A DNA stretch of 36,152 nt from contig VMSS01000157.1 of NCBI GenBank assembly GCA_013791995.1, forward strand, positions 1 to 36,152, given 5' to 3'. Origin of the DNA: Desulfurivibrio sp. Its GTDB lineage: Bacteria; Desulfobacterota; Desulfobulbia; Desulfobulbales; Desulfurivibrionaceae. Shown in pieces: positions 8,850 to 32,920 of the stretch. The notes beneath the pieces were generated by a model. It ran no database searches. It worked only from the letters and a program-made list of their open reading frames with translations, and was not told where the DNA came from. Position numbers and translations under genes: made by a program. The stretch's first letter is position 1. Every line of letters begins with the position of its first letter.

Positions 8850-10478
8850 TCACGCGGCTTGATGCCCTGACTTGCGTAGATAGTATTCGTAATCCCCCCC
8901 GTAGGACCGCATTTCCCCGTGGTCCACTTCCATGACCCGGTTTACCAGCGAGCGAAGAAAATGCCGGTCATGGCTGACCAGCACCACGGTGCCGTTGAAT
9001 TTTTGCAGCGCTCCCAGCAGAATCTCCCGGGACTGGATATCCAGATGGTTGGTGGGCTCGTCCAGGATCAGAAAGTTCAGCGGCTTCGCCAGCATGGTGG
9101 CCAGTACCACCCTGCTTTTTTCGCCGCCGGAAAGCAGCTTGATCTGCTTGTCCACGGTGTCGCCCTGAAAGAGAAAGGCGGCGCAGAGATTGCGCACCGT
9201 GCCGATGTTGGCCTGGGGCAGGGCGTCCTGTACGGTGTCAAAAACGGTTCGCTCCGGGATCAGGACATCCATGGCATGCTGGCTGAAATAACCGAAGCTG
9301 ACGTTGGCCCCGATGGTGGCGTTGCCGGAGCTGGGTTCGGTCTGCCCGGCCAGGACCTTGAGAAAGGTTGATTTTCCCGCGCCGTTGACCCCGACCACGG
9401 CCACCTTTTCTCCCCGCTGGATCACCCCGGAGATGCCGCTGAACACCGGCCGTTCCCCACCCCCGTCCAGAGGCCAACTCTTGGCCAAACCTTCCATCCG
9501 GACCACATCATCGCCGCTGCGGGGCGGTTCGCTGAATTCAAAACTGATCAGCCGCTGTTCCACGGGCAGCTCGATGCGCTCGATCTTCTCCAATTTCTTG
9601 ACCCGGGATTGCACCTGGGAGGCATGGGATGCGCGGGCTGCGAAGCGGGCGATGAAATCCTCCTCCTTGGCCAGCATTTCCTGCTGGCGGCGGAAGCTGG
9701 CGGCCAGCTGTTCCCGCCGGATCTCCCGCTCGCGCAGGTAGAAGTCGTAATTGCCGCTGTAGGTGGTGATGATGGAGTTGGCCACCTCGATGATTCGGGA
9801 AACCAGCCGGTTCATGAAGTCTCGGTCATGACAGGTCATGAGGACCGCGCCCTTGAAATCCTTGGCCAGCCATTCCTCCAGCCAGACGATGGACTCCACA
9901 TCGAGATGGTTGGTGGGCTCATCAAGCAGCAGGACATCGGGGTTCATGGTCAAAATGCGGGCCAGGGCGATGCGCATCTTCCAGCCGCCGCTGAAGGATT
10001 CCACCGGCCGGTTAAAATCCTCCGGACCGATGCCGAGGCCGGTCAATACCGCCTGGGCCCGGGATTCCAGATCGTAGCCGCCGCGATGCTCAAACTCCTC
10101 CATGGCGTCGCCGTATTTCTCCAGCAGCGCGGTCATGGCATCGTCCTCCATGGGCAGAGCCATGGCCGCCTCCATCTCCTTGAGTTCCTCGCCCAGCCGT
10201 ATCACCTCGCTCACGGCGGACATGGTTTCCTCAAGGGCCGAGCGGCCGGACATCTCGCCTACCTCTTGGGAGAAGTAACCGATCACCGTTTTCTTGGCGC
10301 AGGAGATCTCGCCTTTGTCCGCTTCTTCCTCGCCGGTGATCAGGCGAAAGATGGTGGATTTTCCCGTGCCGTTTGGTCCGACCAGGCCGGTGCGGACGCC
10401 GGGGAGTATCTGCAGGCTGGCGTTGGCAAAAAGAATTTGCGAACCATGCTGTTTGCTGATATTGGTGAGGTGAATCAT
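8850..10478 (-). CDS. ABC-F family ATPase (translation factor type)
   Basis: Two ABC ATPase domains sit in one soluble chain of 542 residues, with no membrane domain, as in the ABC-F family (Uup, EttA, YbiT, YheS). Walker A motifs are GPNGTGKST at about 34-42 and GVNGAGKST in the second half. The signatures are SGGWKMR and LSGGEKSR, and both Walker B boxes read LLDEPTNHLD or LILDEPTNHLD. The inter-domain linker is charged and helical. By family knowledge it acts on the ribosome; I cannot assign the subgroup. ATG 10478 starts the protein at MIHLTNISKQHG with GGAG eleven bases upstream; an ATG ten codons earlier has no ribosome site. Confidence 0.9.
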   Translation of the reverse strand: MIHLTNISKQHGSQILFANASLQILPGVRTGLVGPNGTGKSTIFRLITGEEEADKGEISCAKKTVIGYFSQEVGEMSGRSALEETMSAVSEVIRLGEELKEMEAAMALPMEDDAMTALLEKYGDAMEEFEHRGGYDLESRAQAVLTGLGIGPEDFNRPVESFSGGWKMRIALARILTMNPDVLLLDEPTNHLDVESIVWLEEWLAKDFKGAVLMTCHDRDFMNRLVSRIIEVANSIITTYSGNYDFYLREREIRREQLAASFRRQQEMLAKEEDFIARFAARASHASQVQSRVKKLEKIERIELPVEQRLISFEFSEPPRSGDDVVRMEGLAKSWPLDGGGERPVFSGISGVIQRGEKVAVVGVNGAGKSTFLKVLAGQTEPSSGNATIGANVSFGYFSQHAMDVLIPERTVFDTVQDALPQANIGTVRNLCAAFLFQGDTVDKQIKLLSGGEKSRVVLATMLAKPLNFLILDEPTNHLDIQSREILLGALQKFNGTVVLVSHDRHFLRSLVNRVMEVDHGEMRSYGGDYEYYLRKSGHQAA

Positions 10479-10544
10479 TGTGAGGGTATCTCCACGAAAA
10501 AACGGCATTTATAGCATGATGGCCAATGGGGTGCAACCCAATTC

Positions 10545-11448: not shown

Positions 11449-12375
11449 ATGATTGTGCGGAGAAAAAAACGTCCTGGCCTTGACTGGCGTCGGGCCATGT
11501 GTCTGGGGCTTCTCTTTTTTCTGTTGGCCGGCTGCGAGGTCGGGCAGGAAGAAAAAACGGGTCAGGAGCGTCTGGTCCGCCTGGACAACCTCCAGCAACT
11601 CCCGGACAGGCAAGTCGATCCGGACTTGCAATCGCTCCGGATCGGGGTGGGGGCCATTCTGTCTCCCCAGGGTACGGCGCTGTCTTACCAGCCGCTCATC
11701 GATTATCTGGGCCGCAAGATGGGCAAGCCGGCAATTCTGGTGCAACGCAAAACCTATCAAGAACTGAACGACCTGCTGGCCAGAAATGTGGTGGACCTGG
11801 GCTTCATTTGCACGGGAGCCTATACTGAAGGTGCCCGGAACGGGACAATTTCGTTGCTGGTTGTCCCGCAGATCAACGGCAAGACCACCTATCGTTCTTT
11901 TGTCATCGTGCCTGCCGCTTCTCCAGCTCAGGGTGTTGTAGACTTGCGCGGCAAGGTGTTTGCCTTTACCGATCCGCTTTCCAATACCGGCTATCTCTAC
12001 CCGCTTTCTCTGTTGCATGCTATTGGGCAGCAACCTGAAACATTTTTCGGCCGGACTATTTTCACTTACAGTCATGACCGTTCCATTGCCGCAGTGATGG
12101 AGGGCCTCTCGGATGGAGCTTCAGTGGATAGTCTGGTCTATGAATTTGCCGGAAAGCGCAACGAGGCAATCGGCCGACAGACCAGGGTGATATGGGAGTC
12201 GCAGGATTTTGGGATCCCGCCGGTGGTTGTGCCGCGCACCATCTCCCCGGCAAGGAAGGCCATGCTGAAAGAGCTGCTCCTCGGCCTGCATCATGATGCG
12301 GACGGGGAAAAAGCCCTGGCCGAGTTGGGGGTGGAACGCTTCGTGGAGCCTGATCCAGGGATGTATGGATTATAA
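11449..12375 (+). CDS. PhnD-like periplasmic binding lipoprotein, probable oxyanion sensor
   Basis: The 308-residue protein has a lipoprotein signal (Arg/Lys-rich start, LGLLFFLLAGC) and a phosphonate/phosphate-type binding domain. Landmarks are LRIGVGAILSPQGTALSYQPLIDYLGRKMGKP, VDLGFICTGAY, and DLRGKVFAFTDPLSNTGYLYP. No ABC permease or ATPase follows; instead a histidine kinase starts six bases after the stop. That arrangement is known from AioX-AioS-AioR, where a PhnD-like protein presents arsenite to the kinase, and from tetrathionate sensing. With arrAB downstream, an arsenic oxyanion is the likely ligand (inference). No clear ribosome site precedes the ATG, and a TATACT box ends five bases before it, so a leaderless transcript is possible. 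Confidence 0.82.
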   Translation: MIVRRKKRPGLDWRRAMCLGLLFFLLAGCEVGQEEKTGQERLVRLDNLQQLPDRQVDPDLQSLRIGVGAILSPQGTALSYQPLIDYLGRKMGKPAILVQRKTYQELNDLLARNVVDLGFICTGAYTEGARNGTISLLVVPQINGKTTYRSFVIVPAASPAQGVVDLRGKVFAFTDPLSNTGYLYPLSLLHAIGQQPETFFGRTIFTYSHDRSIAAVMEGLSDGASVDSLVYEFAGKRNEAIGRQTRVIWESQDFGIPPVVVPRTISPARKAMLKELLLGLHHDADGEKALAELGVERFVEPDPGMYGL

Positions 12376-12381
12376 GGAGAG

Positions 12382-13854
12382 ATGTCTGTGCCTGTTGCCC
12401 TGACCCCTGTGGGAATGTTTTTCCGGAAAGCCGCGCACAAGGGCAGATCCTTTCTGCTCAGTGTGCCGCTGAAGTTGAAGATTCTGGGGTTGGCCCTTGC
12501 CCTGATCCTTCTCTTTGGCGCGGTCACCATTTATAAGGTGCAGGCGGCACTCAGCGAGAACTTCGACGCCTTTCTTCGGGAAGAGAGTCGCTTTGTGGCA
12601 AAGGAACTATCCTATCAGGCCCACGATTATCTATTGATAAACGATATGTATGGCCTGACCCAGATGCTCAGAAACACGGTGCAGAATCGTCCCGATTTGC
12701 GTTACGTCTTTGTTCGCAATGCCGCAAATCAGGTGGTTGCCCATAACTTTGAGGGAGGGTTTCCTGTGGATTTGATAGCCCCCCCCACCGACTTTCCGCT
12801 ACGTGATTCCGGTCCGAAACTGCTTCGCACCAATGAAGGGGACATATGGGAGGCGAGGGCCGTTATCAGCAATGGGAATGAGGGTGCGGTGGTGGTTGGG
12901 GTGAAGGGTGACAGCCTGCGCAGCCAGATCGAAGCGATCACCCAGTCTCTTTTTCGGGCTACTCTGTTGGTCGCGGCCTTTGGAATACTCTTGTCCCTCG
13001 GGATGACCTGGATCATCACCCGGCCGGTGGGCAGGCTGCTCGAAGCAACCAGGGCCGTGCGACGCGGGGATTATTCCGTGGCCCTGGACTCGACGGAAAG
13101 TCAGGATGAACTGGGAAAACTCATGGAGGGATTCAACGCCATGGTGCTTTCTCTTGCCAGTGCGGATAAGGCCCGCTTGGAAAAGGAGCATCTCCAGCGG
13201 GATTTCCTGCACCGGGTCATGGCCGGGCAGGAAAGCGAAAGAAAACGGATTGCCCGCGAGCTCCACGACCAGACCGGTCAGGCCCTGGCCTCGGTCATGG
13301 TTGATCTTAAGATGCTGGAAAACGCGAAAAACAAGACAGAGACCAGCCAGAGTATCGGTCGGTTGAGAAAGGCCATAACCGAGGAGATGGAGGCGATCCA
13401 TGATCTGGCGGTGGCGCTGCGACCCAGTGTGCTGGACGATCTTGGCCTGGTTCCGGCGGTGGAGATGTTAGTCCGGGGTTTTATCGGCCGGCAGGGGATT
13501 GCGGTGGAGCTGACCATCATCGGTTTTGCCGAGAAAAGGCCGGATACCTGCACGGAAACCTGCGTCTACCGGATTGTGCAGGAAGCCCTCGTCAATGTGG
13601 CGCGGCATGCCCAGGCCACCGAGGTGAGTGTGCTTCTGGAATGGCGCGGGGAGAAGATCAGGGGGGTGATCGAGGACAACGGGATTGGTTTTGCGCCGGA
13701 ACTGGTTGACTCCAAGGCCAAGCTCGGAGTGCTGGGCATGCGGGAGCGGACCCAGTTGCTGCAAGGGGCTTTCCGGATTGAAAGCAGTCCGGGCGAGGGC
13801 GCCATGCTGGTTTTTGAAATGCCTGCCAAGGCGGGGGTCTGCCATGAGCAATGA
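12382..13854 (+). CDS. Membrane sensor histidine kinase (HisKA_3, NarX/DegS type)
   Basis: The 490-residue protein has a first membrane helix at about 31-53, a periplasmic sensor region of about 135 residues, a second helix at about 193-212, a HAMP linker, and a HisKA_3 dimerisation domain with the phospho-acceptor His at about 295 (ARELHDQTGQ). A GHKL ATPase follows with EALVNVARHA, DNGIGF and GMRER. AGGAG precedes the ATG by a few bases. It sits between the binding lipoprotein and a response regulator whose start overlaps its stop by 11 bases, so the three should act as one sensing unit. The periplasmic domain carries no motif I recognise and probably contacts the lipoprotein. Confidence 0.93.
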   Translation: MSVPVALTPVGMFFRKAAHKGRSFLLSVPLKLKILGLALALILLFGAVTIYKVQAALSENFDAFLREESRFVAKELSYQAHDYLLINDMYGLTQMLRNTVQNRPDLRYVFVRNAANQVVAHNFEGGFPVDLIAPPTDFPLRDSGPKLLRTNEGDIWEARAVISNGNEGAVVVGVKGDSLRSQIEAITQSLFRATLLVAAFGILLSLGMTWIITRPVGRLLEATRAVRRGDYSVALDSTESQDELGKLMEGFNAMVLSLASADKARLEKEHLQRDFLHRVMAGQESERKRIARELHDQTGQALASVMVDLKMLENAKNKTETSQSIGRLRKAITEEMEAIHDLAVALRPSVLDDLGLVPAVEMLVRGFIGRQGIAVELTIIGFAEKRPDTCTETCVYRIVQEALVNVARHAQATEVSVLLEWRGEKIRGVIEDNGIGFAPELVDSKAKLGVLGMRERTQLLQGAFRIESSPGEGAMLVFEMPAKAGVCHEQ

Positions 13855-14500
13855 AATGATTCGGATTCTGGTGGTTGATGATCATCCGGTGCTCCTCTCC
13901 GGCTTGAGCCTGCTGCTCAATGCCGAAGCGGATATAGAGGTGGCGGGCACGGCGGATTCGGGGCCAAAGGCCCTGGCTCTGGTCAAGGAGTTGCAACCGG
14001 ACATCGTGCTTCTTGATATCTCCCTGCCTGGGACCAGCGGGCTTCTGCTCTTGCCGGAGATCTTGCGGCTGGCGCTTCAGACCCGCGTCCTCATGCTGAC
14101 CATGCACGAGGACCATCAGTATCTCAAGGAAGCTGTGGCCAAGGGCGCCAAGGGCTTTATTCTCAAAAAATGCCTGGATGTCGATCTGCTCTACGCTATC
14201 CGTACGGTGATGCGGGGACAGATGTACATCCATCCCGCCATGATGCCTGATATCCTGGCCGAGCAGGACAAGGGAGCCGCCTCCCCCGAGGAGATGCTCT
14301 GGCTCTCGCTCAGCAAACGGGAGCAGCAGGTCATGCTCGCGGTGGCCATGGGGTTCACGAGCAGGGAGATTGCCGAGCAGCATTTCTTGAGTGAAAAAAC
14401 CGTGGCCACCTACCGCTCCAGGGCCATGGCCAAGCTTGGTCTGGAAACCAGGGCCGAACTGGTCGAGTTTGTTTCGCACCAAAAACGAACTGCTGGGTGA
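13844..14500 (+). CDS. NarL/FixJ-family response regulator
   Basis: A receiver domain (ILVVDDHP, phospho-acceptor Asp 58 in VLLDISLPG, Lys in FILKKC) is followed by a LuxR-type helix-turn-helix (LSKREQQVMLAVAMGFTSREIAEQ, SEKTVATYRSRAMAKLGL). The 218-residue length is typical. The ATG at 13844 lies inside the end of the kinase gene, indicating translational coupling. By family logic the phosphorylated protein binds DNA as a dimer next to sigma-70 promoters. The porin and the arr operon downstream are the obvious candidate targets; a tandem direct repeat starting 31 bases after this gene might be one of its sites. Confidence 0.93.
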   Translation: MSNEMIRILVVDDHPVLLSGLSLLLNAEADIEVAGTADSGPKALALVKELQPDIVLLDISLPGTSGLLLLPEILRLALQTRVLMLTMHEDHQYLKEAVAKGAKGFILKKCLDVDLLYAIRTVMRGQMYIHPAMMPDILAEQDKGAASPEEMLWLSLSKREQQVMLAVAMGFTSREIAEQHFLSEKTVATYRSRAMAKLGLETRAELVEFVSHQKRTAG

Positions 14501-14530
14501 TCCATTCCTGACAGACACCTGTCGAGGAAA

Positions 14531-14575
14531 TCCCTACAGAGAAATCAAAAAACTCCTACAAAGAAATCAAAAAAT
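14531..14575. repeat. Tandem direct repeat of about 22 bases
   Basis: TCCCTACAGAGAAATCAAAAA (14531 on) is followed directly by TCCTACAAAGAAATCAAAAA (14554 on). The two units differ at a single substitution and one length change. They lie just past the response regulator gene, in the long leader region before the porin gene. Confidence 0.7.
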
Positions 14576-14704
14576 CCCCGCTTTTTTTCCTTCTGCGTTT
14601 CTCCTATCCTGATCCAAATTCTTTGTTTATCCAGCTTTTTATTCTCCCGGCCCTCGGTCAAAACAGGGTCTGTCGTGGTTCCGTCAATCACAATGGCGGA
14701 GCCT

Positions 14705-14805
14705 ATGGGAGTGATCGAAGCGATTAACATCCGCGAGAAAATGCCTGGCGAAAAAAAAGCGCCTGGAATTTTTCTGGCGGAAAACTGGGGGATCATCAGT
14801 TACCT
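14705..14805 (+). pseudogene. Remnant of a MOSC-domain gene
   Basis: Read from 14705, the frame gives MGVIEAINIREKMPGEKKAP then GIFLAENWGI, which is the N-terminus of a MOSC protein and aligns with the intact copy at 17633 (VEAVCVSEKKGMVKKEVPEIVLKENWGI). At DNA level, 16 bases (GAAAACTGGGGGATCA) are identical at 14780-14795 and 17717-17732. The homology stops right after the GI, where the intact gene continues GDAHAG. The frame then runs on into the start of the porin gene out of phase. I read this as the 5' stub of a deleted second MOSC gene. Confidence 0.65.
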
Positions 14806-14858
14806 GCGTCGAAAACGGGAAGAAAACTTTATAAACCCTACGGAGAAAGGAGAAACAG

Positions 14859-16163
14859 ATGAGAAAGGTATTATCAGCGGCAGCAGCTCTTGGCGTTTGC
14901 CTCGCCCTGCCCTCCGCCGCCCTGGCTGGCGCAGACATGAGCAATGAACAGATTTTGAAGGAGCTTGAGTATCTGCGCAACAAGGTCCAGTCCCAGCAGG
15001 AGCAAATCGAGGCTCTCGGGTCCATGGTAGATAAAAAGGTCGCGGCAAAGGTGGAGGAAGAAGTGAAAAAAGCCGGCACCAGCAAGGTGGCATTGGCAAA
15101 TGAGTTCATTGATCAGCTCACGCTTAAGGGCGACTTGCGGGTGCGTTACGAGGTCTTGGACAAGAATTATAAGGATGGAAAGCAGGGAGCTACAGATATT
15201 TCCAACCGTGATCGGGTGCGAACCCGTTTCCGGCTCGGCGGCGTTTGGGATAACAAGGCTGAAAACTGGCAGATCGGCGCAGGACTTGCCACGGGCAGCG
15301 ATGACCCGACCAGCACTAACGACACTTGGAGCGATGCCAAGCCTTTTGAAACCGGGGCTATTAATCTTGACTACGCCTATGCCAAGCACAAATGGAACGA
15401 TTTTGTCTTCATCCTTGGTCAGTCCGAGAATCCTTTCACAAGTTCCTGGGTTTTTTGGGATAGCGATGTGCGTCTCGCTGGTATGACCGCTCAGTACGGC
15501 CAAAAAGATGGGGTCTTTGCAACCTTGGGCGGTTACGGCGCTAAGTATGTAAATGGTGACAACTTTGCCACCTTGTTGGCCGGGCAGGCCGGGTATAAGG
15601 GCAAGGTGGCTGCAGCCAAGTATACCCTGGCCGCAGGATACCAGACCTACAGCAAATCCCTGATCAACGAGGCCAGCTCCACCTTTTTGCTGAATAATGT
15701 CGATGCCAACAAGTATGAGCTCAACATCGGCGACCTGTACGGCGATGTCTCTTTTCCTGTTGGGAATGTCAAGCTCAAGCTCTACGGGCAGATCTGGCAG
15801 AACTTCGGGGCAGACGGCAATATTGGCCAGAGTCAGGCAGGCAGCAGCTTCACCAAAAAGCCGGGTGATGCCGATCAGGGTTTTGTGTTCGGGGCCGATG
15901 CCAAATACGACGCCTTCAAGCTAGGATACGCCTACTCGGTGGTCGAGGCGGATTCTCTCTTTGGATATCTCGCCGATGCTGATTTCGGTGATGGCCTTTC
16001 CAAGACCAACAAGAAAGGGCACCGGGTGAATTTTGGCTATGATCTGAGCAAAAACTGGGGAACAAGCCTTACTTGGCTCAGCTATGAGCGTGACGAGGAT
16101 TGGGCTGCCGCCAAGGAAGACCAGGTTGATCTCGTTCAGTTTGACGTAAGTTATAAGTTCTAG
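14859..16163 (+). CDS. Outer-membrane porin with N-terminal coiled coil
   Basis: The 434-residue protein has a signal peptide cleaved near ALAGAD, a heptad-like segment (ILKELEYLRNKVQSQQEQIEALGS, about 30-75), then a long series of alternating beta strands rich in Gly, Tyr, Asp and Asn, ending in the outer-membrane C-terminal signature VSYKF. This is the layout of the putative-porin family common in deltaproteobacteria. The ATG has AAAGGAG seven bases upstream. Lying between the sensing genes and the arr operon, it may admit arsenate or another anion to the periplasm (inference); no substrate-selectivity motif can be read from sequence. Confidence 0.85.
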   Translation: MRKVLSAAAALGVCLALPSAALAGADMSNEQILKELEYLRNKVQSQQEQIEALGSMVDKKVAAKVEEEVKKAGTSKVALANEFIDQLTLKGDLRVRYEVLDKNYKDGKQGATDISNRDRVRTRFRLGGVWDNKAENWQIGAGLATGSDDPTSTNDTWSDAKPFETGAINLDYAYAKHKWNDFVFILGQSENPFTSSWVFWDSDVRLAGMTAQYGQKDGVFATLGGYGAKYVNGDNFATLLAGQAGYKGKVAAAKYTLAAGYQTYSKSLINEASSTFLLNNVDANKYELNIGDLYGDVSFPVGNVKLKLYGQIWQNFGADGNIGQSQAGSSFTKKPGDADQGFVFGADAKYDAFKLGYAYSVVEADSLFGYLADADFGDGLSKTNKKGHRVNFGYDLSKNWGTSLTWLSYERDEDWAAAKEDQVDLVQFDVSYKF

Positions 16164-16531
16164 TGTTATTGTGAAAGTGGGAAGAAAGCACAGGTCTACG
16201 ATTCAACCCCAGAAGCTTGCCGGGTACAATCTGTTGGCATCTTTTCTGCCCCAGTTTCAGCTAAAAGATAGTCGGGGAAAAGGCCAGGCCATGGAGATCA
16301 ACGCCTTTATGTCTGAGACCATTCGGTCTGGCCGAAATCCTTTCCACTATCAATTAGGCGCTGGTAGACGGAGTATGATGATGCTTTTAAGGTTTTCGTC
16401 TGCATTCCTTTTTTGGCGTTTGGAAGACAAGCGGAGAGAAGCGCAGCTATAAACAGGCATGTCAGGAAAAAGCCTACGCGTCTATGGGGTAGTGTCAGGC
16501 ATTCATTGACAAATAAATTCAGCAAAAAAAA
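16164..16531. other. Intergenic region after the porin, no supported gene
   Basis: About 370 bases before the inverted repeat. A plus-strand frame (16171-16452) and a minus-strand frame with a lipoprotein-like start (16307-16525) exist, but neither has a convincing ribosome site or start. A TTGACA hexamer at 16506-16511 could be part of the moaA operon promoter, but no well-spaced -10 box follows. Confidence 0.5.
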
Positions 16532-16569
16532 CCGCTATTATTATGCCTAAAAAAGCATAATAATAGCGG
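16532..16569. promoter_or_regulatory. Perfect 15-base inverted repeat upstream of moaA (operator or terminator)
   Basis: CCGCTATTATTATGC (16532-16546) pairs without mismatch with 16555-16569 around the eight-base loop CTAAAAAA. It ends 64 bases before the moaA start. On the minus strand it is followed by eight T, the form of an intrinsic terminator in that direction, but no minus-strand gene ends here. The outer CGCTAT...ATAGCG with an AT-rich interior resembles ModE operators, which control molybdenum genes in other bacteria. Either reading is possible. Confidence 0.65.
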
Positions 16570-16633
16570 TGTGTTGTCAAAGAAAAAAGCTCCATAGCGC
16601 ATATTGCGCAGTTCCCATGGACTGAGGAGGCTC

Positions 16634-17626
16634 ATGCCGAATACTCTTTGTGACTCCCATGGCAGAAATATCAACTATCTGCGTCTGGCCGTCACCGACC
16701 GTTGCAATTTGCGTTGCACCTATTGTATGCCGAAAGGTTGCTTCGCTCCCAGAAACGAACTGCTCAATTATGATGAACTGCTCCGTGTGGTCAGAATTTT
16801 TGCCGGTCTCGGAATTGGCAAAATCAGACTGACCGGTGGAGAACCTTTTGTCCGCAAAGGCTTTGTCGATTTTTTGGCGGAGATACACAGCGTGACGGGC
16901 ATCAAGGAAGTCGGCATTACTACTAATGGGACGCTCTGTTTTGATCAGATACAGCGCCTCAAGGCATCGGGGGTTACCGGTATCAACTTCAGTCTGGATA
17001 CGTTGTCGCCTACCCGGTACCAAAAAATCACCGGCTCGGACCTGTTTCATGAGGCGTTTGCCGCCATCATGGAGGCAATTATTCAGGGAATTCGCGTTAA
17101 GATTAATGTTGTTGTCTTGGATAACGACAATTCCGATGAGCTGCTTCACCTGGCCAGGCTGGCGGAAAATTATCCCGTGGAGGTGCGTTTTATCGAGCCC
17201 ATGCATTTTAATGGCAGTGGAAAATTCACCCCGCCGCATTGGAACGCAATGCGGCTGAAAGGTTTTTTTCTGGAAAATCTCTCCGGCTGCGTCGAGATAC
17301 TCAAAAAAATACGACCCCACGGCTCCACGGCTCAGCTTTTTAAGGTAAAAAATTATTCCGGGATAGTGGGCATCATCGCGGGGCACTCACGAAGTTTCTG
17401 CGCATCTTGCAACAAGGTTCGTCTGACTCCGCAGGGTATGCTGAAAAATTGCCTGTACGATAACGGCGTTCTTGACATGAAAGGGTTGTTGCGCAGCGGC
17501 GCCGATGACAGGGAAATAATCATCGCCATCCAGAACGCGGTGGCGGCAAAGTCTGCGGATGGTTTTATCGTTGAAAAAGATCGCCGCGATTTCGTTCCGC
17601 GTTCCATGGCGACAATTGGAGGGTAA
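16634..17626 (+). CDS. moaA: GTP 3',8-cyclase (molybdenum cofactor synthesis)
   Basis: MoaA is a radical-SAM enzyme that starts molybdopterin synthesis from GTP. The 330-residue protein has the N-terminal CX3CX2C cluster motif (C24, C28, C31 in TDRCNLRCTYC), GGEP, and the C-terminal cluster motif CX2C-X13-C (FCASCNKVRLTPQGMLKNC). It ends in the Gly-Gly tail needed for activity (MATIGG). ATG 16634 follows GAGGAGG closely; the upstream ATG at 16604 lacks one. The gene is six bases before a MOSC protein and the pair leads into arrAB, so it probably serves the arsenate reductase cofactor supply. An additional moaA elsewhere in the genome is likely but cannot be seen. Confidence 0.95.
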   Translation: MPNTLCDSHGRNINYLRLAVTDRCNLRCTYCMPKGCFAPRNELLNYDELLRVVRIFAGLGIGKIRLTGGEPFVRKGFVDFLAEIHSVTGIKEVGITTNGTLCFDQIQRLKASGVTGINFSLDTLSPTRYQKITGSDLFHEAFAAIMEAIIQGIRVKINVVVLDNDNSDELLHLARLAENYPVEVRFIEPMHFNGSGKFTPPHWNAMRLKGFFLENLSGCVEILKKIRPHGSTAQLFKVKNYSGIVGIIAGHSRSFCASCNKVRLTPQGMLKNCLYDNGVLDMKGLLRSGADDREIIIAIQNAVAAKSADGFIVEKDRRDFVPRSMATIGG

Positions 17627-17632
17627 GAAAAA

Positions 17633-18100
17633 ATGAATACCGGATGCGTGGAAGCAGTCTGCGTCAGTGAAAAAAAAGGCATGGTGAAAAAAGAGGTGCC
17701 TGAGATTGTTCTGAAAGAAAACTGGGGGATCACCGGGGATGCCCATGCCGGTGACTGGCACCGTCAGGTGTCGTTGCTGGCCGGGGAAAGTATCGATGCG
17801 GTAAAGAAAAAGATGCCCCACCTGAAGCATGGGGTGTTTGCCGAGAACATCGTTTGCCGGGGGTTGGATTTGCTGCAGCTTGCCATTGGCGACCGTTTGG
17901 TGATCGATGGCATGGTGGTACTCGAAGTCACCCAGATCGGCAAGGAATGCCACAACGACGGCTGCGCCATCAAAAAAGCCACAGGGGATTGCATTATGCC
18001 CAAGGAAGGGATCTTCACCAAGGTGATCCACGGCGGAGTTGTCAAGGCGGGTTTCGCCATTGAAATAGAAAAGATTACGGACGTGACAAGGGTAGCATAG
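17633..18100 (+). CDS. MOSC-domain protein
   Basis: A single-domain MOSC protein of 155 residues, a family linked to molybdenum cofactor sulfuration and sulfur carrying. The core reads GITGDAHAGDWHRQVSLLAGESI, then GVFAENIVCRGLDL, EVTQIGKECH and DCIMPKEGIFTKVI. The Cys of GKECH is the conserved candidate sulfur-binding residue. Many deltaproteobacterial homologues are fused to or lie beside MoaB/MogA-type proteins. Here it is six bases after moaA and 27 before arrA. Together with the remnant at 14705 this shows two MOSC genes were once present in this cluster. Confidence 0.88.
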   Translation: MNTGCVEAVCVSEKKGMVKKEVPEIVLKENWGITGDAHAGDWHRQVSLLAGESIDAVKKKMPHLKHGVFAENIVCRGLDLLQLAIGDRLVIDGMVVLEVTQIGKECHNDGCAIKKATGDCIMPKEGIFTKVIHGGVVKAGFAIEIEKITDVTRVA

Positions 18101-18127
18101 CCTGAAGCAAACAAAGGAGATAAATGC

Positions 18128-20668
18128 ATGAAGATTAAAAGAAGGGATTTTCTCAAACTGAGTGCTGCAACCGGTTTGGCGGTCGCAGCCTTCAAGGGAA
18201 CCACCTTAAGCGCCTTGGCCGAAGTACCGAAAGGTACCATCGGCGGCGAGAAACCCGGCAAGTGGATGGCCTCCACCTGTCAGGGCTGCACCACCTGGTG
18301 CCCCATAGAAATCTTTGTGCAGGACGGGCGAGCCACTAAGGTGCGCGGCAATCAGCTCAGCAAGGCCAACAACGGCTACTGTTGCGTGCGTGGTCATCTG
18401 ATTATCCAGCAGATTTACGATCCGGACCGGATCAAAACCCCGATGAAGCGGACCAACCCGGTCAAGGCCCGCGGCGCCGATCCCAAGTTCGTGCCCATCA
18501 CCTGGGACGAGGCTTTGAACACCATCGCCGGCAAGATCATGGAATTGCGCGACAATAACGAGACCCACAAGTACATGCTGATGCGCGGTCGCTACTCCTA
18601 CAACAACGACATCCTCTACTCCAATCTCACCAAGGTGATCGGTTCTCCCAATAATATCTCCCACAGCGCCCTCTGCGCCGAGGTGGAGAAGATGGGCTCT
18701 TACTATACCGAGGGCTACTGGGGCTATCGAGACTATGATCTGGAGAACATGAAATACCTTATCGTCTGGGGTTGCGATCCGCTTTCCTCCAACCGCCAGA
18801 TCCCCAATGCCATCAGCAAATTCGGCAATCTGCTGGACAACGGCACCGTGGTGGCGATTGACCCCCGGATGACCAACTCTGCGGCGAAAGCACACAAGTG
18901 GCTGCCGATCAAGCCCGGCGAGGACGGCGCCCTGGCTACGGCCATGGCCCATGTCATCCTCTCCTCCGGCCTGTGGAACAAGGATTTCTGCGGCGACTTC
19001 AAGGACGGCAAGAACCTGTTCAAGGCCGGTCAGGCCGTGGACGAGGCCGCCTTTGACGAGAAGCGCACCCACGGCCTGGTCAAGTGGTGGAACATCGAAC
19101 TGAAAGACCGCACCCCGGAATGGGCTGCCAAGATCACCGGGTTGAACACGAAGGACATTGTTGAAGTGGCCACCGGCTTTGCCAAGGCGGCGCCCCGCTG
19201 CGCGGTGTGGAATGGTCCCAACATGATGCCCCGCGGCACTTATGGCGCCATGGCCATGTATGCTTTGAATGGTCTGGTAGGGGCCACCGACAGCGTCGGC
19301 GGCGTCTGTACCGGTATGAGCGGCCCCAGCAGCGATCATCCCAAGGTTGATGACTTTCTGGACGACATCGCCAAGGCCGGCAGCAAGAACAAGAAGATCG
19401 ACCAACGCGGCACTCTGGAGTTCCCGGCTCTCTCCGCCGGCAAGGTGGGCGGCGGCGTGGTCACCAATAACGTGGCCAACGCCATCCTGGCGGCCAAGCC
19501 TTACGACATCAAGGTTGCCATCGGCTATTTCTGCAATTTCAACTTTTCCGGAGCCGAGGGCGGCCGCTGGGACAAGGCGTTGGCCAAGGTCCCTTTTTTC
19601 GCTCATATCACCACCATGGCCTCGGAAATGAGTCAGTTCGCCGATATCGTTTTGCCCTCGGCTATGCATCACAGCGAACAGTGGGCCCCGGTCAAGAGCA
19701 AGGCCAACCTCCATGGCCACATTTCCCTGCAACAACCGGTGGTCAAGCGGATGTTCGAGGTCAAGGCGCCGGAGACTGAGTTTGTCTGGTTGCTCGCCGA
19801 AAAGCTCAAAGCCAAGGGTTTTGACCAACCGATGAACTGGCTCCTCTCCTACAAGGATCCGGAAACCGGCAAACCGGCCACCAGTGCCGAGGACTTCGCC
19901 ATTGTTGCCACCAAGGTCTTTACCCGGAAGGCTTGGGACCCGGCGGAGAACAAGGATTTTAAGGGCGATCGGCCCACCGGTTGGGCCGAGTTTGTCGAAA
20001 AGGGCATCGTCAACTCCGAGAAGTTTACCTTCGGCAAGAAGTGGGACAAGGGCTTTGAAAAAACCGTGACCAAGAAGTTCGAATTCTACAGCGAGACCCT
20101 GAAAAAAGCCCTCACCGAACATGCCGAGAAGCAGAAGGTCACCATTGACCAGGCGCTGGAGGCGATCAACTACACCGCCCGCGGTGAGCAGGCCTTTGTG
20201 CCCCACTACGAACCGGTCCGCCGCCACGGCGAGGTCAAGGACTTCCCCTTCACTCTGGTGGACATGAAGTCCAAATTGAACCGTGAAGGGCGCAGCGGCA
20301 ACCTCCCCTGGTACATGGCCTTCAAGCAGTGCGATCCCGGTGACATCAACAACGAGGACGTTCTCCAGATTAATCCGACCGACGCCAAAAAGCTTGGGGT
20401 CAAGGAAGGCGACATGGTCAAGGTGACCTCCACGGTGGGCAGCCTCACGGTCCGCGCTCGCCTTTGGGAAGGGGTGCAACCCGGCACCCTGGCCAAATGC
20501 TTCGGCCAGGGCCATTGGGCCTATGGTCGGGTTGCGGCCAAGGATTACGCCAAGGCCATTCCCCGCGGTGCCAACTTCAACGAGATCATGCCGGATGACT
20601 ACGATCGCATGATCGGCGCGACCTGCCGTAACGGCGGCTTCACCGGTCTGAAGATCGAAAAGGCCTAA
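18128..20668 (+). CDS. arrA: Respiratory arsenate reductase, catalytic molybdopterin subunit
   Basis: ArrA reduces As(V) to As(III) in the periplasm as the terminal step of arsenate respiration. The 846-residue protein (known ArrA about 850) begins with a Tat signal (RRDFLK). The [4Fe-4S] motif is C51-X2-C54-X3-C58-X27-C86. The stretch MRGRYSY (R155, Y156), NNISHSALCAE (candidate Mo ligand C183), K188 and YYTEGYWGYRDYDL agrees closely with Shewanella ArrA as I remember it, with a constant offset of about ten residues at the substrate pocket. The C-terminal molybdopterin-binding domain is complete. AGGAG lies eight bases before the ATG. Antimonate or other related reductases are less likely given the neighbouring arsR and acr3. 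Confidence 0.9.
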   Translation: MKIKRRDFLKLSAATGLAVAAFKGTTLSALAEVPKGTIGGEKPGKWMASTCQGCTTWCPIEIFVQDGRATKVRGNQLSKANNGYCCVRGHLIIQQIYDPDRIKTPMKRTNPVKARGADPKFVPITWDEALNTIAGKIMELRDNNETHKYMLMRGRYSYNNDILYSNLTKVIGSPNNISHSALCAEVEKMGSYYTEGYWGYRDYDLENMKYLIVWGCDPLSSNRQIPNAISKFGNLLDNGTVVAIDPRMTNSAAKAHKWLPIKPGEDGALATAMAHVILSSGLWNKDFCGDFKDGKNLFKAGQAVDEAAFDEKRTHGLVKWWNIELKDRTPEWAAKITGLNTKDIVEVATGFAKAAPRCAVWNGPNMMPRGTYGAMAMYALNGLVGATDSVGGVCTGMSGPSSDHPKVDDFLDDIAKAGSKNKKIDQRGTLEFPALSAGKVGGGVVTNNVANAILAAKPYDIKVAIGYFCNFNFSGAEGGRWDKALAKVPFFAHITTMASEMSQFADIVLPSAMHHSEQWAPVKSKANLHGHISLQQPVVKRMFEVKAPETEFVWLLAEKLKAKGFDQPMNWLLSYKDPETGKPATSAEDFAIVATKVFTRKAWDPAENKDFKGDRPTGWAEFVEKGIVNSEKFTFGKKWDKGFEKTVTKKFEFYSETLKKALTEHAEKQKVTIDQALEAINYTARGEQAFVPHYEPVRRHGEVKDFPFTLVDMKSKLNREGRSGNLPWYMAFKQCDPGDINNEDVLQINPTDAKKLGVKEGDMVKVTSTVGSLTVRARLWEGVQPGTLAKCFGQGHWAYGRVAAKDYAKAIPRGANFNEIMPDDYDRMIGATCRNGGFTGLKIEKA

Positions 20669-20693
20669 TTTCTGGATTCAGGAGGAACATACA

Positions 20694-21449
20694 ATGACGC
20701 AATATGCGATGGTTATAGATCTTCACAAATGCTCAGGCTGCGGAGCCTGCGCTCTGGCCTGCAAGACCGGGAACAACACCGCGAACACGGCCAACGGCCA
20801 GGCCCACAACTGGGCCGATTTCCAGGCCGAGGTCAGCGGCAAATTTCCGAAAACCAAGTACTCCATGCGACCGGTGCTCTGCAATCACTGCGCCAATGCC
20901 CCCTGTGTCAAGGCCTGCCCGGTGACACCCAAGGCCATGTACAAGACCAAGGACGGGATCACCATGCACAACGACGAGCGCTGCATCGGTTGCCGTGCCT
21001 GCCAGGAGGCCTGCCCCTACTCCAAGATGGAGGTCAAGGGCAATGAGTACAGTGTCATCAGTTACAACGAAGAGGGCAAGCCCTATCGGGCCGATTTCGC
21101 TGATAAGACCGAGATGATTCCGGGCTGTACAACCTCCGGCGCCGAATTGGCTGCCAAGGCCGGGGCCAGCCCGGCTCACCGCACCGCCTACGACCATCCG
21201 GATTATCAGGATGTGCGCCGGGACAACATCACGGAAAAGTGTATTTTCTGTGAACATCGGGTGAAGAAGGGTGAGTTGCCGAACTGTGTGGTTGCCTGTC
21301 CCGCCAAGGCCAGGATCTTCGGCGACATCCAGGACAAGAACAGCGAGGTTGCTCAGCTGGTCAAGAAGTACAAGGGCACGGTTCTCATGGCGGAAAAAGG
21401 CACCAAGCCCAATGTGTATTATATCCGGAGCTTCAGCGTTGCCAAGTAG
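20694..21449 (+). CDS. arrB: Respiratory arsenate reductase, Fe-S subunit
   Basis: The DmsB/NrfC-type polyferredoxin of 251 residues carries electrons to ArrA. Sixteen Cys form four [4Fe-4S] motifs: C13/C16/C19/C23, C63/C66/C71/C75, C97/C100/C103/C107, and C183/C186/C198/C202. No signal peptide is visible, consistent with co-export on the ArrA Tat signal. The start has AGGAGGAA upstream and follows arrA by 25 bases. A strong terminator follows, so arrAB may be the main transcript, with the chaperone and polyferredoxin made from read-through or a second promoter. Confidence 0.92.
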   Translation: MTQYAMVIDLHKCSGCGACALACKTGNNTANTANGQAHNWADFQAEVSGKFPKTKYSMRPVLCNHCANAPCVKACPVTPKAMYKTKDGITMHNDERCIGCRACQEACPYSKMEVKGNEYSVISYNEEGKPYRADFADKTEMIPGCTTSGAELAAKAGASPAHRTAYDHPDYQDVRRDNITEKCIFCEHRVKKGELPNCVVACPAKARIFGDIQDKNSEVAQLVKKYKGTVLMAEKGTKPNVYYIRSFSVAK

Positions 21450-21483
21450 TCCGGGCAATGCGTAGATCAAAGGCTCTGTGTCG

Positions 21484-21519
21484 GGGGCGGGATGCGGGAG
21501 CGTTCCGCCCCATTTTTTT
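21484..21519 (+). terminator. Intrinsic terminator after arrB
   Basis: GGGGCGGGA (21484-21492) pairs with TTCCGCCCC (21503-21511) with one wobble, followed by A and seven T (21513-21519). Confidence 0.85.
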
Positions 21520-21617
21520 AGGGGCTGCTGTGCTCCTGCAATGTTAAGACCAATGGTGTTCACAAAACAGCGACGGGGTGACACCCCAACCTTTTCACAT
21601 TTTTTTGAGGGATTTTT

Positions 21618-22268
21618 ATGAGCACTGATCTTGCGCGACCTGACCTGGCCCGAAGCGACGCCTACCGTTTGCTTGCCGCCTGCTTTTATGAGCCGGACCG
21701 GGAGATGTTTCTTGAGGAAAATCTCTGTGTCAATCTGGCCGGCCTGATGGTGGAGCTGTCGGTACCGATGGAGGAGTCCTGCCACCGCCTGGGACAGGGT
21801 CTCCAGGAAAACAGCCGGGAAGAGCTGCTGGTGGATTACGCCGCCCTTTTTCTGGGGCCCTTCGGCGCCCCGGCCCAGCCCTACGGTTCGGTTCACCTGG
21901 AGGAAGAACGGCAGCTCATGGGCGACTCGACCATGAAGGTCCAGAAAATATATGGTGAAGCAGGGGTGAAGCAGGAGACCGATGGCCCTCCGGACCATAT
22001 TGCCATCGAACTGGAATTCATGAGCTTTCTCGGGCAGCGGCTCGCCCAGGCTACAGCAACTGCGGACGAAACTGCGGTGACGGAATTTTCTGCCATTCAA
22101 ACCAGATTCTTCAACGGCTTCCTGGCCCCATGGGCGCCCCTGCTGGGCCGGGCCATTCAGGAGCACGCCCAGCTGACCTTTTACCGCGCCTTGGGCGAGT
22201 GCCTGCTCGGTTTTATCGGCGCGGAACAGCAGCGTCTTCAGAAACCAGCCGTTTCCCCCAGGCCATGA
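21618..22268 (+). CDS. arrD: TorD/DmsD-family chaperone for the arsenate reductase
   Basis: A helical protein of 216 residues of the cytoplasmic chaperone family that guards cofactor insertion and Tat export of molybdoenzymes. The family signature is present in DGPPDHIAIELEFMSFL, and an earlier YAALFLGPFGAPAQPYGSVHLEE matches the usual substrate-binding half. GAGGG lies a few bases before the ATG. Its stop overlaps the next start by ATGA. ArrA is the nearest Tat-borne molybdoenzyme and thus the expected client; the symbol is used by analogy with arr clusters that carry such a gene. Confidence 0.85.
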   Translation: MSTDLARPDLARSDAYRLLAACFYEPDREMFLEENLCVNLAGLMVELSVPMEESCHRLGQGLQENSREELLVDYAALFLGPFGAPAQPYGSVHLEEERQLMGDSTMKVQKIYGEAGVKQETDGPPDHIAIELEFMSFLGQRLAQATATADETAVTEFSAIQTRFFNGFLAPWAPLLGRAIQEHAQLTFYRALGECLLGFIGAEQQRLQKPAVSPRP

Positions 22269-23284
22269 GCCTCGCCGACCGGTTTGTCGACCGGTTCAAG
22301 AACGGCGCGGTTCCGGCCCTTGAGATTATCTTTCGCCGTTGCCTGCGGACCCGCTTTCAGGGTAGTTCCTGCGACCGCTGCGCCAAGGAATGTCCGGTAG
22401 AGGCCCTCCGTCTTGAGCCGGGGAAGATCACCCTTGATCCGAAGCGCTGCGTGGGCTGTCTGGCCTGTATCGCGGTCTGTCCGGCAGAGGCGCTGCTCGG
22501 GTGCGACTCCCGCCTGGCTGCGGCCCCAGCCAAGGTGGTTGCGGGGAAAGCGGTCTCTTTTTGCTGTGAAAAGGGGATCCGCACCGGAGAGGAGATCATT
22601 CTTCCCTGTCTGGGCGCACTTTCCGAGGAGCATCTGGTCGCCTTCGCCGTCCGGGCAGGAAAAACTGTTTGCCTGAACCTTGTCCGGTGCACCGATTGCC
22701 GGGCCACGTTTGTCCCGGATATTCTGGTCCGGCGCCTGCAGGCTCTTGAAAGAAAACTGGGGCGCGATGGCCTCACCTCTGTAATCAGGCTGATTACGCG
22801 GGAGGAAGAGGTCGAGGCAGGGCAGACGGCGAATTCATTGAGCAGGCGCGCTTTTTTTCGTGCCTTCCGTGAGCTTTCCTTCCATGCCGCCACCGAGACC
22901 GTTATCGCCCTGCAGGCGGATCCAAATCCAAGGGAACAACACGCGCACAAGCATCAACCTGCCCGGTTGGCCGTGCTTCGCCAGACTCTGGCTGAATGCG
23001 ATGAGGAATCCATCCGTCTGGCCCTGCTGCGTTTCTTCTTTACCCTTGCGGTAAGCAGTGATTGCAACTTTTGTGGCGCTTGCGTTGGTATGTGCCCCAC
23101 CGGTGCGCTTAAAAATATCTGGGAAGAGGGCGTGAAACAACTGCGATTCGACTGGGCCCGCTGTAGCGGTTGCGGGCTTTGTCTGGAATTTTGTCGGGAA
23201 AAGGCGCTCACCCTCGTTGCCGGTCGCTCGGCGGAGAGCATCGACCAGGGAAAAGATATCCTTTTGCAGGCGAGTCGTGCATAG
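22265..23284 (+). CDS. Polyferredoxin with two pairs of Fe-S motifs, possible arr electron carrier
   Basis: I do not recognise this 339-residue protein as a named subunit. It starts at the ATG that overlaps the chaperone stop. An N-terminal ferredoxin pair lies at C36/C39/C43 (one Cys fewer than usual) and C62/C65/C68/C72. A C-terminal pair is CNFCGACVGMC and CSGCGLCLEFC. The middle (about 95-150: FCCEKG, ILPCLGALSEEHLVAF, LNLVRCTDC) resembles the small Fe-S domain of heterodisulfide reductase and hydrogenase partners. No signal peptide or membrane helix is seen, so it should be cytoplasmic. Linkage to the chaperone suggests a role in maturation or electron supply for ArrAB; that is inference. 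Confidence 0.75.
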   Translation: MSLADRFVDRFKNGAVPALEIIFRRCLRTRFQGSSCDRCAKECPVEALRLEPGKITLDPKRCVGCLACIAVCPAEALLGCDSRLAAAPAKVVAGKAVSFCCEKGIRTGEEIILPCLGALSEEHLVAFAVRAGKTVCLNLVRCTDCRATFVPDILVRRLQALERKLGRDGLTSVIRLITREEEVEAGQTANSLSRRAFFRAFRELSFHAATETVIALQADPNPREQHAHKHQPARLAVLRQTLAECDEESIRLALLRFFFTLAVSSDCNFCGACVGMCPTGALKNIWEEGVKQLRFDWARCSGCGLCLEFCREKALTLVAGRSAESIDQGKDILLQASRA

Positions 23285-23330: not shown

Positions 23331-23780
23331 TTATTTGTCAAGGGCTCCAATAAAATCCTTGGCCTTGTCTCCTCGCAACTGCTCGGCCAGACCGAGCAGT
23401 CCATCGGTGAGATACTTTGCCGTATATCCTTTTGTGGTCAGATACAGGCGCGCCATGCTGGCCCGGTCATAATGCGGACAGGCGGTGACGATGATTTTGT
23501 TCCTGTCCAGTTCGTTCAAGCGGGACGGTAACTCATTGAGTGGGATATTTCTGGCGAAGCCCATACGCCAGGCTGCGTATTCCTCGGGGAAACGGACATC
23601 AATAAGTTGCGCTTTGTCGGTCTTGAGCAACTCAAGCAACTCTTTGGTGTTGATCTTCATTTCTTTACGTTCCTGGTAGTCAAAGTCGGCCAGGTATTCG
23701 TCAAGGGTGACGGCCAGCGCCGGACTGAAAAAAAGGAGCAGGAGCAGGCCCACCATCGACAACCGTTGTATCGTTTTCAT
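23331..23780 (-). CDS. Exported rhodanese-domain protein
   Basis: The 149-residue protein has a signal peptide (MVGLLLLLFFSPALA) and one rhodanese domain: QLIDVRFPEEYAAWRMGFARNIP, then an active loop CPHYDRAS with the candidate sulfur-carrying Cys, then GYTAKYLTDGLLGL. Such periplasmic rhodaneses move sulfane sulfur. GGAGG lies before the ATG. It starts 39 bases after acr3 in the same direction, so it is probably the last gene of the arsR-acr3 operon. A link between sulfur and arsenic (for example thioarsenate chemistry) is a guess from position. Confidence 0.85.
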   Translation of the reverse strand: MKTIQRLSMVGLLLLLFFSPALAVTLDEYLADFDYQERKEMKINTKELLELLKTDKAQLIDVRFPEEYAAWRMGFARNIPLNELPSRLNELDRNKIIVTACPHYDRASMARLYLTTKGYTAKYLTDGLLGLAEQLRGDKAKDFIGALDK

Positions 23781-23819: not shown

Positions 23820-24908
23820 TCATGGTTTGCAGGAAACATGGCAGATTCCGGCCAGAGTTTCCTTGACGAAGGGGAAGTGCTTTATCTTGAGCCGGAGGGC
23901 CACATTGACCAGAGCGATCAGCACAGGCACCTCCACAAGCGGTCCGATCACGGCGGCAAAGGCCACGCCGGAGTTGATGCCGAATACGGCTATGGCCACG
24001 GCGATGGCCAGCTCGAAGTTGTTGGAGGCGGCGGTGAAGGAGAGGGTGGCGGATTGCTCGTAGGTGGCCCCCACCTTCATGGCCATGAAAAAAGAAACCA
24101 GGAACATGACCAAGAAGTAGATGGTGAGCGGGATCGCGATGCGGAGCACGTCAAAGGGCAGTTGTACGATGTATTCGCCTTTGAGGGAAAACATCACCAT
24201 GATGGTGAAGAGCAGGAAGATCAGGGTGAAGGGGCTGATCTTCGGGATCAGTTTTTCCTGGTACCAGGCGTCGCCTTTGAGTTTTACTCCGATAAAGCGG
24301 GTCAACATCCCGGCGAGGAAGGGGATGCCGAGATAGATAAAGACCGATTGGGCGATCTCTGCCATGGAGATGTCCACCGCCGCGCCTTCAAGACCCAGCC
24401 AACCGGGAAGCACGGAGATGAAGAGCCAGGCGTAGACCGAGAAGAACAGGACCTGGAAGATGGAGTTGAAGGCCACCAGCCCGGCACAATATTCGGTGTC
24501 GCCGCCGGCCAGATCGTTCCAGACAATGACCATGGCGATACAGCGGGCCAACCCGATGAGGATGAGGCCCACCATGTATTCGTGGTGGCCGGAGAGAAAG
24601 GTGATGGCCAGGAGAAACATGAGAACTGGGCCGATGATCCAGTTTTGCACTAGGGAGAGGGCCAGCACCTTGTAGTCGCGAAAAACCTCGTGGAGCTTTT
24701 CATAGCGCACCTTGGCCAGAGGCGGATACATCATAAGGATCAGGCCGATGGCGATGGGGATGTTGGTGGTGCCGACCTGAAAGGAGTTGATGATCTCGGT
24801 GACCGGCGGATAGAGATAACCGGTCATGACCCCGATGAACATGGCCAGGAATATCCAGAGGGTGAGGTACTGGTCGAGGAAACTTAATTTTTTTTCGGTG
24901 CTTGGCAT
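23820..24908 (-). CDS. acr3: ACR3-family arsenite efflux permease
   Basis: The inner-membrane carrier of 362 residues has about ten hydrophobic helices and exports arsenite. ACR3 landmarks are present: [10 protein letters not shown], the conserved helix-4 Cys in [19 protein letters not shown], and [25 protein letters not shown] with the conserved Glu. ATG 24908 (MPSTEKKL) has GGGAG six bases before it and is preferred over the GTG at 24926. A palindrome resembling the arsR operator lies about 57 bases upstream. It protects the cell from arsenite made by ArrAB or taken in. Confidence 0.95.
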
Positions 24909-24964
24909 GGAAATCTCCCGTGTCACTTGCCCAAATTTGTCGTCGGGGTTAGCTATTTCTTTTT

Positions 24965-32825: not shown

Positions 32826-32876
32826 AGCTGATATAATATTGTGCAGGAGCAACTGATGATCTTGCTGTAGAGTTTA

Positions 32877-32896
32877 GTTGTTTCAGGCATTACAAC
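32877..32896. promoter_or_regulatory. Inverted repeat GTTGT-N10-ACAAC before cooS
   Basis: GTTGT (32877-32881) and ACAAC (32892-32896) contain TGT-N10-ACA, the spacing of Crp/CooA sites. It ends 24 bases before the cooS start, so it may lie in the transcript leader rather than at an activating position. Confidence 0.35.
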
Positions 32897-32920
32897 AGTG
32901 ACCACAGAGGAGGATGCATC

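Follow-up and report, generated by a model that had tools for sequence, protein, structure and literature searches.

ArrXSR was described in Chrysiogenes arsenatis (Badilla et al., 2018, PMC5908839), where the regulator ArrR is CitB-like and carries no AAA+ domain. ArrX of this bacterium binds arsenate with a Kd of 1 uM and phosphate with a Kd of 150 uM, and does not bind arsenite (PMC5908839). The pocket residues alone are not decisive for arsenite versus arsenate, and the listed carriers of arrXSR are Firmicutes, Epsilonproteobacteria, and Chrysiogenetes (PMC5908839).

The DNA analyzed here (the window) is the whole stretch of 36,152 nucleotides from Desulfurivibrio sp. Since ArrXSR has been described (PMC5908839), the window represents a member of a published kind, and we consider it very probable that it encodes an ArrXSR arsenate-sensing system together with its target operon. 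A first-pass annotation had named a PhnD-like lipoprotein, a kinase, and a regulator, followed by a porin, moaA, MOSC, arrA, arrB, a TorD-type chaperone, and a polyferredoxin; each of these genes is present on the plus strand and in that order according to the open reading frames, Pfam, and NCBIfam. The first-pass observation holds and its reading was right, most of it is accounted for by published work, and the more interesting question lies in the relatives. The window adds a lineage of sediment-dwelling anaerobes (Desulfobulbales) to the range of the published arsenate-sensing system. New here are a candidate ArrR operator, the remnant of a MOSC gene together with a mosaic ancestry of the locus, and, in relatives, the sensor, operator, and MOSC gene in front of a TtrB-NrfD-TtrA/SrdA-like operon.

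The binding protein ArrX

11449..12375, plus strand: arrX, periplasmic binding lipoprotein of the PhnD/AioX family, 308 aa (PF12974, E 2.7e-57)

Among solved structures, the top sequence match of this protein is ArrX of Chrysiogenes arsenatis (6x6b, E 7.6e-49), followed by AioX (about 1e-28) and then by PtxB/HtxB and PhnD. An AF2 model (mean pLDDT 82.1) has ArrX as its top structural matches (Z 33.8; arsenate-bound ArrX 6xl2 with Z 33.2 and an rmsd of 1.5 over 248 residues), with lower values for AioX (Z about 31.5) and for transporter proteins (at most Z 30.4). Because the gap in Z between ArrX and the others is small, the family claim rests on the sequence result. By sequence and predicted fold the PhnD-like lipoprotein is ArrX, being nearer to ArrX than to AioX. 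The likeness to AioX that had been proposed in the first-pass annotation holds for the logic of the system, but the closest relative is ArrX and the system has already been published (PMC5908839). In the ArrX tree, the placement of Chrysiogenes ArrX is insecure (long branches). Among the matches listed, plasmid records contain only AioX/ArxX-like relatives of the window ArrX (31-39% identity).

In AioX numbering, the binding pocket is defined by Tyr88, Cys106, Tyr131, Ser161, Ser163, His192, and Asp210 (PMC5908839). The window ArrX reads Y-C-Y-S-T-H-D and keeps all seven oxyanion positions including the cysteine, with a threonine at the Ser163 position as in most of its relatives. With either Ser or Thr at this fifth position, the pocket is kept in 39 of 40 related-genome loci (in the remaining one, Glu replaces Asp) and in every one of the 82 ArrX from 80 named-genome loci. 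The arsenic pocket is missing from five further PF12974 proteins encoded in this genome, and two more are too partial to judge.

Many PF12974 proteins serve ABC transporters, and the PhnD-like gene might be part of a transporter with an accidental adjacency to arr. No permease or transport ATPase was found next to it among the window genes (Pfam), as the first-pass annotation had pointed out, and the nearby ABC protein at 8850-10508, with two ATPase domains and ABC_tran_Xtn, is of the ABC-F type. The X-S-R triplet is moreover conserved across phyla. A transporter binding protein, lacking a permease and contradicted by synteny, was ruled out, and this explanation is extremely improbable.

The kinase ArrS and the regulator ArrR

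12382..13854, plus strand: arrS, membrane histidine kinase with HAMP, HisKA_3, and HATPase_c domains (Pfam; H-box and N-box)
13844..14500, plus strand: arrR, NarL/FixJ-type response regulator, 218 aa (Response_reg and GerE)

The H-box of ArrS reads RELHD, at His291, and its periplasmic part resembles sCache only below the Pfam cut-off. The start codon of arrR is likely the ATG at 13844 rather than the TTG of the longest open reading frame. AioXSR systems are recognized by an RpoN-dependent AAA+ regulator; ArrR consists of Response_reg and GerE only, without an AAA+ domain. The adjoining kinase and a regulator of the CitB/NarL-FixJ class without AAA+ domain are the arrangement that marks ArrXSR.

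Locus L096 (5427-10041) encodes an ArrX-type sensor of about 600 residues with two PhnD domains, paired with a HisKA kinase and a regulator of the sigma-54 AAA+ type in place of HisKA_3 and NarL, and similar sensor lengths occur in L063, L066, L067, L077, L106, and L108 (other families of the order). The sensor type is therefore joined to at least two kinds of two-component systems.

The enzyme genes behind the sensor

14859..16163, plus strand: outer-membrane porin (Porin_5; PF16930, E 3.9e-19)
16604..17626, plus strand: moaA, molybdenum cofactor synthesis (TIGR02666, above the NCBIfam cut-off)
17633..18100, plus strand: MOSC-domain protein (PF03473; MoaC/MOSC model, 181 bits)
18128..20668, plus strand: arrA, catalytic subunit of respiratory arsenate reductase with Tat signal and RGRY motif (NF041714, 6cz7)
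20694..21449, plus strand: arrB, Fe-S subunit (NF041715 as best model, 237.6 bits, cut-off 450)
21618..22268, plus strand: TorD/NarJ-type chaperone, arrD-like (PF02613, E 6e-31)
22265..23284, plus strand: polyferredoxin with Fer4 clusters at both ends (PF00037, three stretches)

The true start codon of moaA may lie slightly downstream of 16604, and the polyferredoxin most likely starts at the ATG at 22265, because the start of its open reading frame (22130) falls within torD. NCBIfam model NF041714 is by far the best model for ArrA and covers positions 2-847 of 848 with 1090 bits, below the strict cut-off of 1600 bits, which is a naming threshold and not a biological feature. The Shewanella ArrA structure 6cz7 is matched over residues 43-844 (E 6e-291). 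Given this full-length similarity to proven ArrA and the adjoining ArrB, the arrA product is predicted to be a respiratory arsenate reductase.

ArrA and ArxA form sister clades, which raises the alternative of a reductase running in reverse, as an ArxA-type arsenite oxidase. The two are told apart by (R/K)GRY in ArrA versus XGRGWG in ArxA (PMC6549141), and the translation of the window gene reads RGRY, with no XGRGWG. An ArxA-type oxidase is ruled out by this motif; in addition, no NrfD-type ArxC gene adjoins and the best full-length match is ArrA, making the reverse reaction highly improbable.

The window cluster contains no NrfD/ArrC gene. Three matches to NapC/NrfH-type cytochromes lie on other contigs of the same genome, one of which could act as a CymA-like quinol dehydrogenase for ArrAB. 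A strong terminator-like hairpin is located between arrB and the chaperone gene (21484-21511), and may either dampen distal gene expression or delimit a second transcript. Another hairpin, long and near-perfect (CGCTATTATTATGC...GCATAATAATAGCG, 16526-16575), precedes moaA and is terminator-like on the minus strand. Rfam and tRNA scans of the window returned nothing.

Chromosomal setting

23331..23780, minus strand: rhodanese-like protein with a signal-like N-terminus, conserved neighbor (PF00581)
23820..24926, minus strand: Acr3-type arsenite exporter, conserved neighbor (sequence read by eye, not by HMM)

The product of the latter gene we take, from knowledge of the family, to be an Acr3-type exporter. 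Both genes are found on the right side in three congeners (L098-L100), where Acr3 is 91-93% conserved. One thought is that rhodanese and Acr3 beside arr handle thioarsenate in sulfidic sediment.

The comparison of gene order with relatives, which had been suggested as a check, bears out the cluster: eight congeners (L094, L097-L100, L103, L110, and L111) have it at the equivalent place in the chromosome. The gene order that returns in congeners is abcF, CHAP-like, arrXSR, (moaA), MOSC, arrAB, torD, and polyferredoxin. Locus L136, apparently from the culturable relative Desulfurivibrio sp. AMeS2, likewise has arrXSR and arrAB. As the site is stable across congeners, the arr cluster is no freshly arrived island. 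The term ‘island’ used earlier is loose: synteny of the neighboring genes extends through the genus, and what is exchanged, on our reading (see below), is the enzyme cassette within a fixed site. In two congeners, L094 (7780-10689) and L097 (9615-12302), a large protein gene lies between arrR and moaA, with GGDEF-EAL predicted by Pfam in L094; the ArrR of both is just 60% identical to that of the window. Farther along the window (32124-34795), a CRP-family regulator is followed by an apparent CooS-type carbon monoxide dehydrogenase, as read by eye.

The adjoining Acr3-type exporter and the retained pocket cysteine, which binds arsenite in AioX, would both suit a sensor that answers arsenite like AioX and thus signals arsenic exposure generally instead of the respiratory substrate. 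In sequence and fold, however, the window protein resembles ArrX more than AioX, and Chrysiogenes ArrX has the same cysteine without binding arsenite (PMC5908839), so we find an arsenite sensor quite improbable and keep to arsenate as the expected ligand.

A candidate operator and promoter downstream of arrR

14533..14552, plus strand: candidate ArrR operator, extra copy CCTACAGAGAAATCAAAAAA, within a 22-bp repeat (direct repeat)
14555..14574, plus strand: candidate ArrR operator, conserved copy CCTACAAAGAAATCAAAAAA (alignment and genome matches)
14581..14610, plus strand: candidate promoter just 3' of the operator, CTTTTT, 18 nt, TATCCT (alignment)

Alignment of the DNA behind arrR from seven loci reveals a single block, CCTACAAAGAAATCAARAAA, with 19 of its 20 positions invariant while the flanks vary. 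Exact matches to CCTACANNGAAATCAANAAA in 38 genomes number eight, in seven genomes, each directly downstream of arrR in arr loci; the reversed control pattern had no match in the same 38 genomes. Allowing one mismatch adds three sites, one of which precedes a MOSC-TtrB-NrfD-TtrA-like operon in a congener. With at most one mismatch, the site is present in seven of the eight loci outside the window whose ArrR is 82-93% identical, and in these seven it starts 25-37 nt past the last sense codon of arrR. Locus L120, with an ArrR that is 89% identical, has a poor match only. The operator fades as ArrR diverges, most loci below about 75% ArrR identity being near the shuffle level, and it was not found in distant loci. 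The extra 22-bp copy of the window is absent from the six aligned congeners.

Shared descent accounts for part of this conservation, because most of the loci are close relatives; the contrast between the invariant block and its variable flanks argues for a function. We propose CCTACAAAGAAATCAAAAAA, just after arrR, as a candidate ArrR operator; it is comparatively conserved and opens the regulation to direct testing. No copy was found before moaA or arrA, with only the hairpin at 16526-16575 and a degenerate resemblance before moaA. Inverted-repeat (FixJ-like) sites were also sought after arrR and none was convincing, the conserved signal being a direct, non-palindromic 20-mer. The candidate promoter at 14581-14610 is weak, because it was read from the alignment and missed by the consensus scan: no sigma-70 match was obtained on the plus strand in the region after arrR. 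In relatives, the position of CTTTTT reads CTTGTT.

The earlier proposal of an AioX-like sensor and two-component pair governing an arsenate reductase fits the sequence, the pocket, the predicted fold, the synteny, and the candidate operator. In the mechanism that we infer, ArrX, anchored in the periplasm, would bind arsenate and activate the membrane kinase ArrS, which would phosphorylate ArrR. ArrR would then bind the CCTACAAAGAAATCAAAAAA sites just past its own gene and switch on the genes behind, from porin to polyferredoxin and including arrAB and the chaperone gene, presumably as one transcript. The porin would let the oxyanion enter, moaA and MOSC would supply the cofactor, and the neighboring Acr3 would export the arsenite formed.

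A probable cassette exchange behind a resident sensor

14704..14795, plus strand: 5' remnant of a MOSC gene, truncated and frame-shifted (match to the MOSC gene of genome G111)

This remnant is 77% identical to the MOSC gene of G111 over 95 nt (E 2.8e-14), and three control gaps compared with MOSC gave nothing below E 0.1. It sits between the operator and the porin gene, and in six congeners MOSC directly follows the operator. A relative of the window porin (60%) is present in the arrXSR locus of G111.

The sensor and enzyme genes of the window have different nearest relatives. ArrS and ArrR are 85-93% identical to their counterparts in G006, G007, and G011, compared with 73-75% for G016 and 60% for G003. 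The window ArrA shares 94% identity with its G016 counterpart and 91% with the one in G103, which belongs to another family, but only 58-62% with those of the other congeners. In the ArrA tree, the window, G016, and G103 form one fully supported clade, with the other congeners in at least three further clades. On the simplest reading, these sequence comparisons suggest that a foreign moaA-MOSC-arrAB cassette, together with the porin, replaced the native one behind the resident arrXSR, and the MOSC remnant is likely the scar of this exchange. The mosaic ancestry agrees with published phylogenies, in which regulators and enzymes differ (PMC5908839); the physical scar is the addition here.

TtrA/SrdA-like enzymes in the same slot

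One congener (G001) encodes arrS, arrR (ArrR 92%), the operator with one mismatch, MOSC, a TtrB-like protein, NrfD, and a TtrA/SrdA-like enzyme of 1066 residues; its arrX, together with the beginning of arrS, is found at one end of a different short contig. In G111 and G052, which belong to other families, arrXSR also precedes a TtrA/SrdA-like enzyme, and the enzymes of the three genomes share 89-91% identity. The sensor-linked enzymes score 490-508 bits against the TtrA model, the cut-off of which is 1750.

Among 146 genomes of the order, a TtrA-like enzyme (at least 43% identity) occurs in 14 and ArrA in 32, and none has both; about three such genomes would be expected (p 0.026), a modest effect calculated with relatedness ignored. 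ArrX is found in 41 of the 46 order genomes with ArrA or a TtrA-like enzyme versus 10 of the 100 without (p 3e-21, relatedness likewise ignored). In the 80 named-genome loci, which were fetched by an ArrX profile and chosen by two peptide patterns and are not a census, the nearest molybdoenzyme is TtrA-like for 37 ArrX and ArrA for 14. The TtrA-like-linked ArrX stem mostly from Chloroflexota, and also from a Trueperaceae genome and Methanoperedens-type archaea. Mapped onto the ArrX tree, the ArrA and TtrA-like labels need 12 changes, at least four of which are forced by well-supported branches. TtrB-(NrfD)-TtrA/SrdA-like operons were found in L197, L070, L072, L069, L198-L203, and with about 37 ArrX of L114-L193, mostly directly behind ArrX-type sensors and in several phyla.

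The TtrA/SrdA clade includes tetrathionate and selenate reductases as well as the Pyrobaculum arsenate reductase (PMC7331816, PMC10100899), so an arsenic activity of the TtrA-like enzyme is plausible. A sensor for phosphate or some other oxyanion (selenate, sulfur oxyanions, or thioarsenate), with arrA as one of several enzyme partners, would be in line with the weak binding of phosphate by ArrX (PMC5908839) and with the presence of the same sensor type beside enzymes whose clade has tetrathionate and selenate reducers as well (PMC7331816). Yet the cysteine-bearing pocket is conserved in every TtrA/SrdA-type locus, Acr3 genes lie near several of the TtrA-like cassettes, and phosphate-uptake genes were not identified among the scanned neighbors; we therefore regard such a sensor as unlikely and prefer a sensor of arsenate.

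From these sequence patterns, the sensor-linked TtrA/SrdA-like enzyme emerges as a candidate second arsenic-oxyanion reductase. A literature search, mostly without subscription papers, found no link of ArrX/AioX sensors with TtrA/SrdA-like enzymes. The broader reading combines a fixed ArrXSR and operator slot with exchanged cassettes and a second, widespread, and unrecognized class of respiratory arsenic-oxyanion reductases, formed by the TtrB-NrfD-TtrA/SrdA-like enzymes of this slot in Desulfobulbales, Chloroflexota, a Deinococcota genome, and Methanoperedens-type archaea. We advance it tentatively, at somewhat less than even chances. If the TtrA-like enzymes are arsenic reductases, surveys based on arrA only would overlook a considerable fraction of arsenate respirers, including many Chloroflexota, with implications for estimates of arsenic release into groundwater.

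Comparison with described systems

The transporter binding proteins PhnD, PtxB, and HtxB have PF12974 and the fold in common with the window ArrX, but are only 17-22% identical to it in structural alignments, and the window has no transporter genes. With AioXSR (Rhizobium NT-26) and ArxXSR, the window shares the fold of the binding protein, the seven pocket residues, and the X-S-R logic. AioR and ArxR, however, belong to the AtoC type, with an AAA+ domain and action at RpoN promoters (PMC5908839), whereas the window ArrR is of the NarL/FixJ type; the enzymes of those systems oxidize arsenite and the window enzyme is of the ArrA type. The clade of TtrA, SrdA, and the archaeal arsenate reductase is absent from the window and stands behind the same sensor and operator in its relatives.

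The ArrXSR-ArrAB system of Chrysiogenes shares with the window a binding protein, a kinase, and a regulator of the CitB/NarL-FixJ class beside arrAB, as well as the pocket residues, and both ArrX have the same fold (Z 33-34; Chrysiogenes structures 6x6b and 6xl2) at 36% identity. Unlike Chrysiogenes, the window has a porin, moaA, and MOSC between the regulator and arrA, and its enzyme genes are followed by those for a chaperone and a polyferredoxin. Its host belongs to Desulfobulbales, outside the carrier list of PMC5908839, and its candidate operator is unlike the putative FixJ-like site tcaggtttttccctga reported upstream of arrA in Chrysiogenes.
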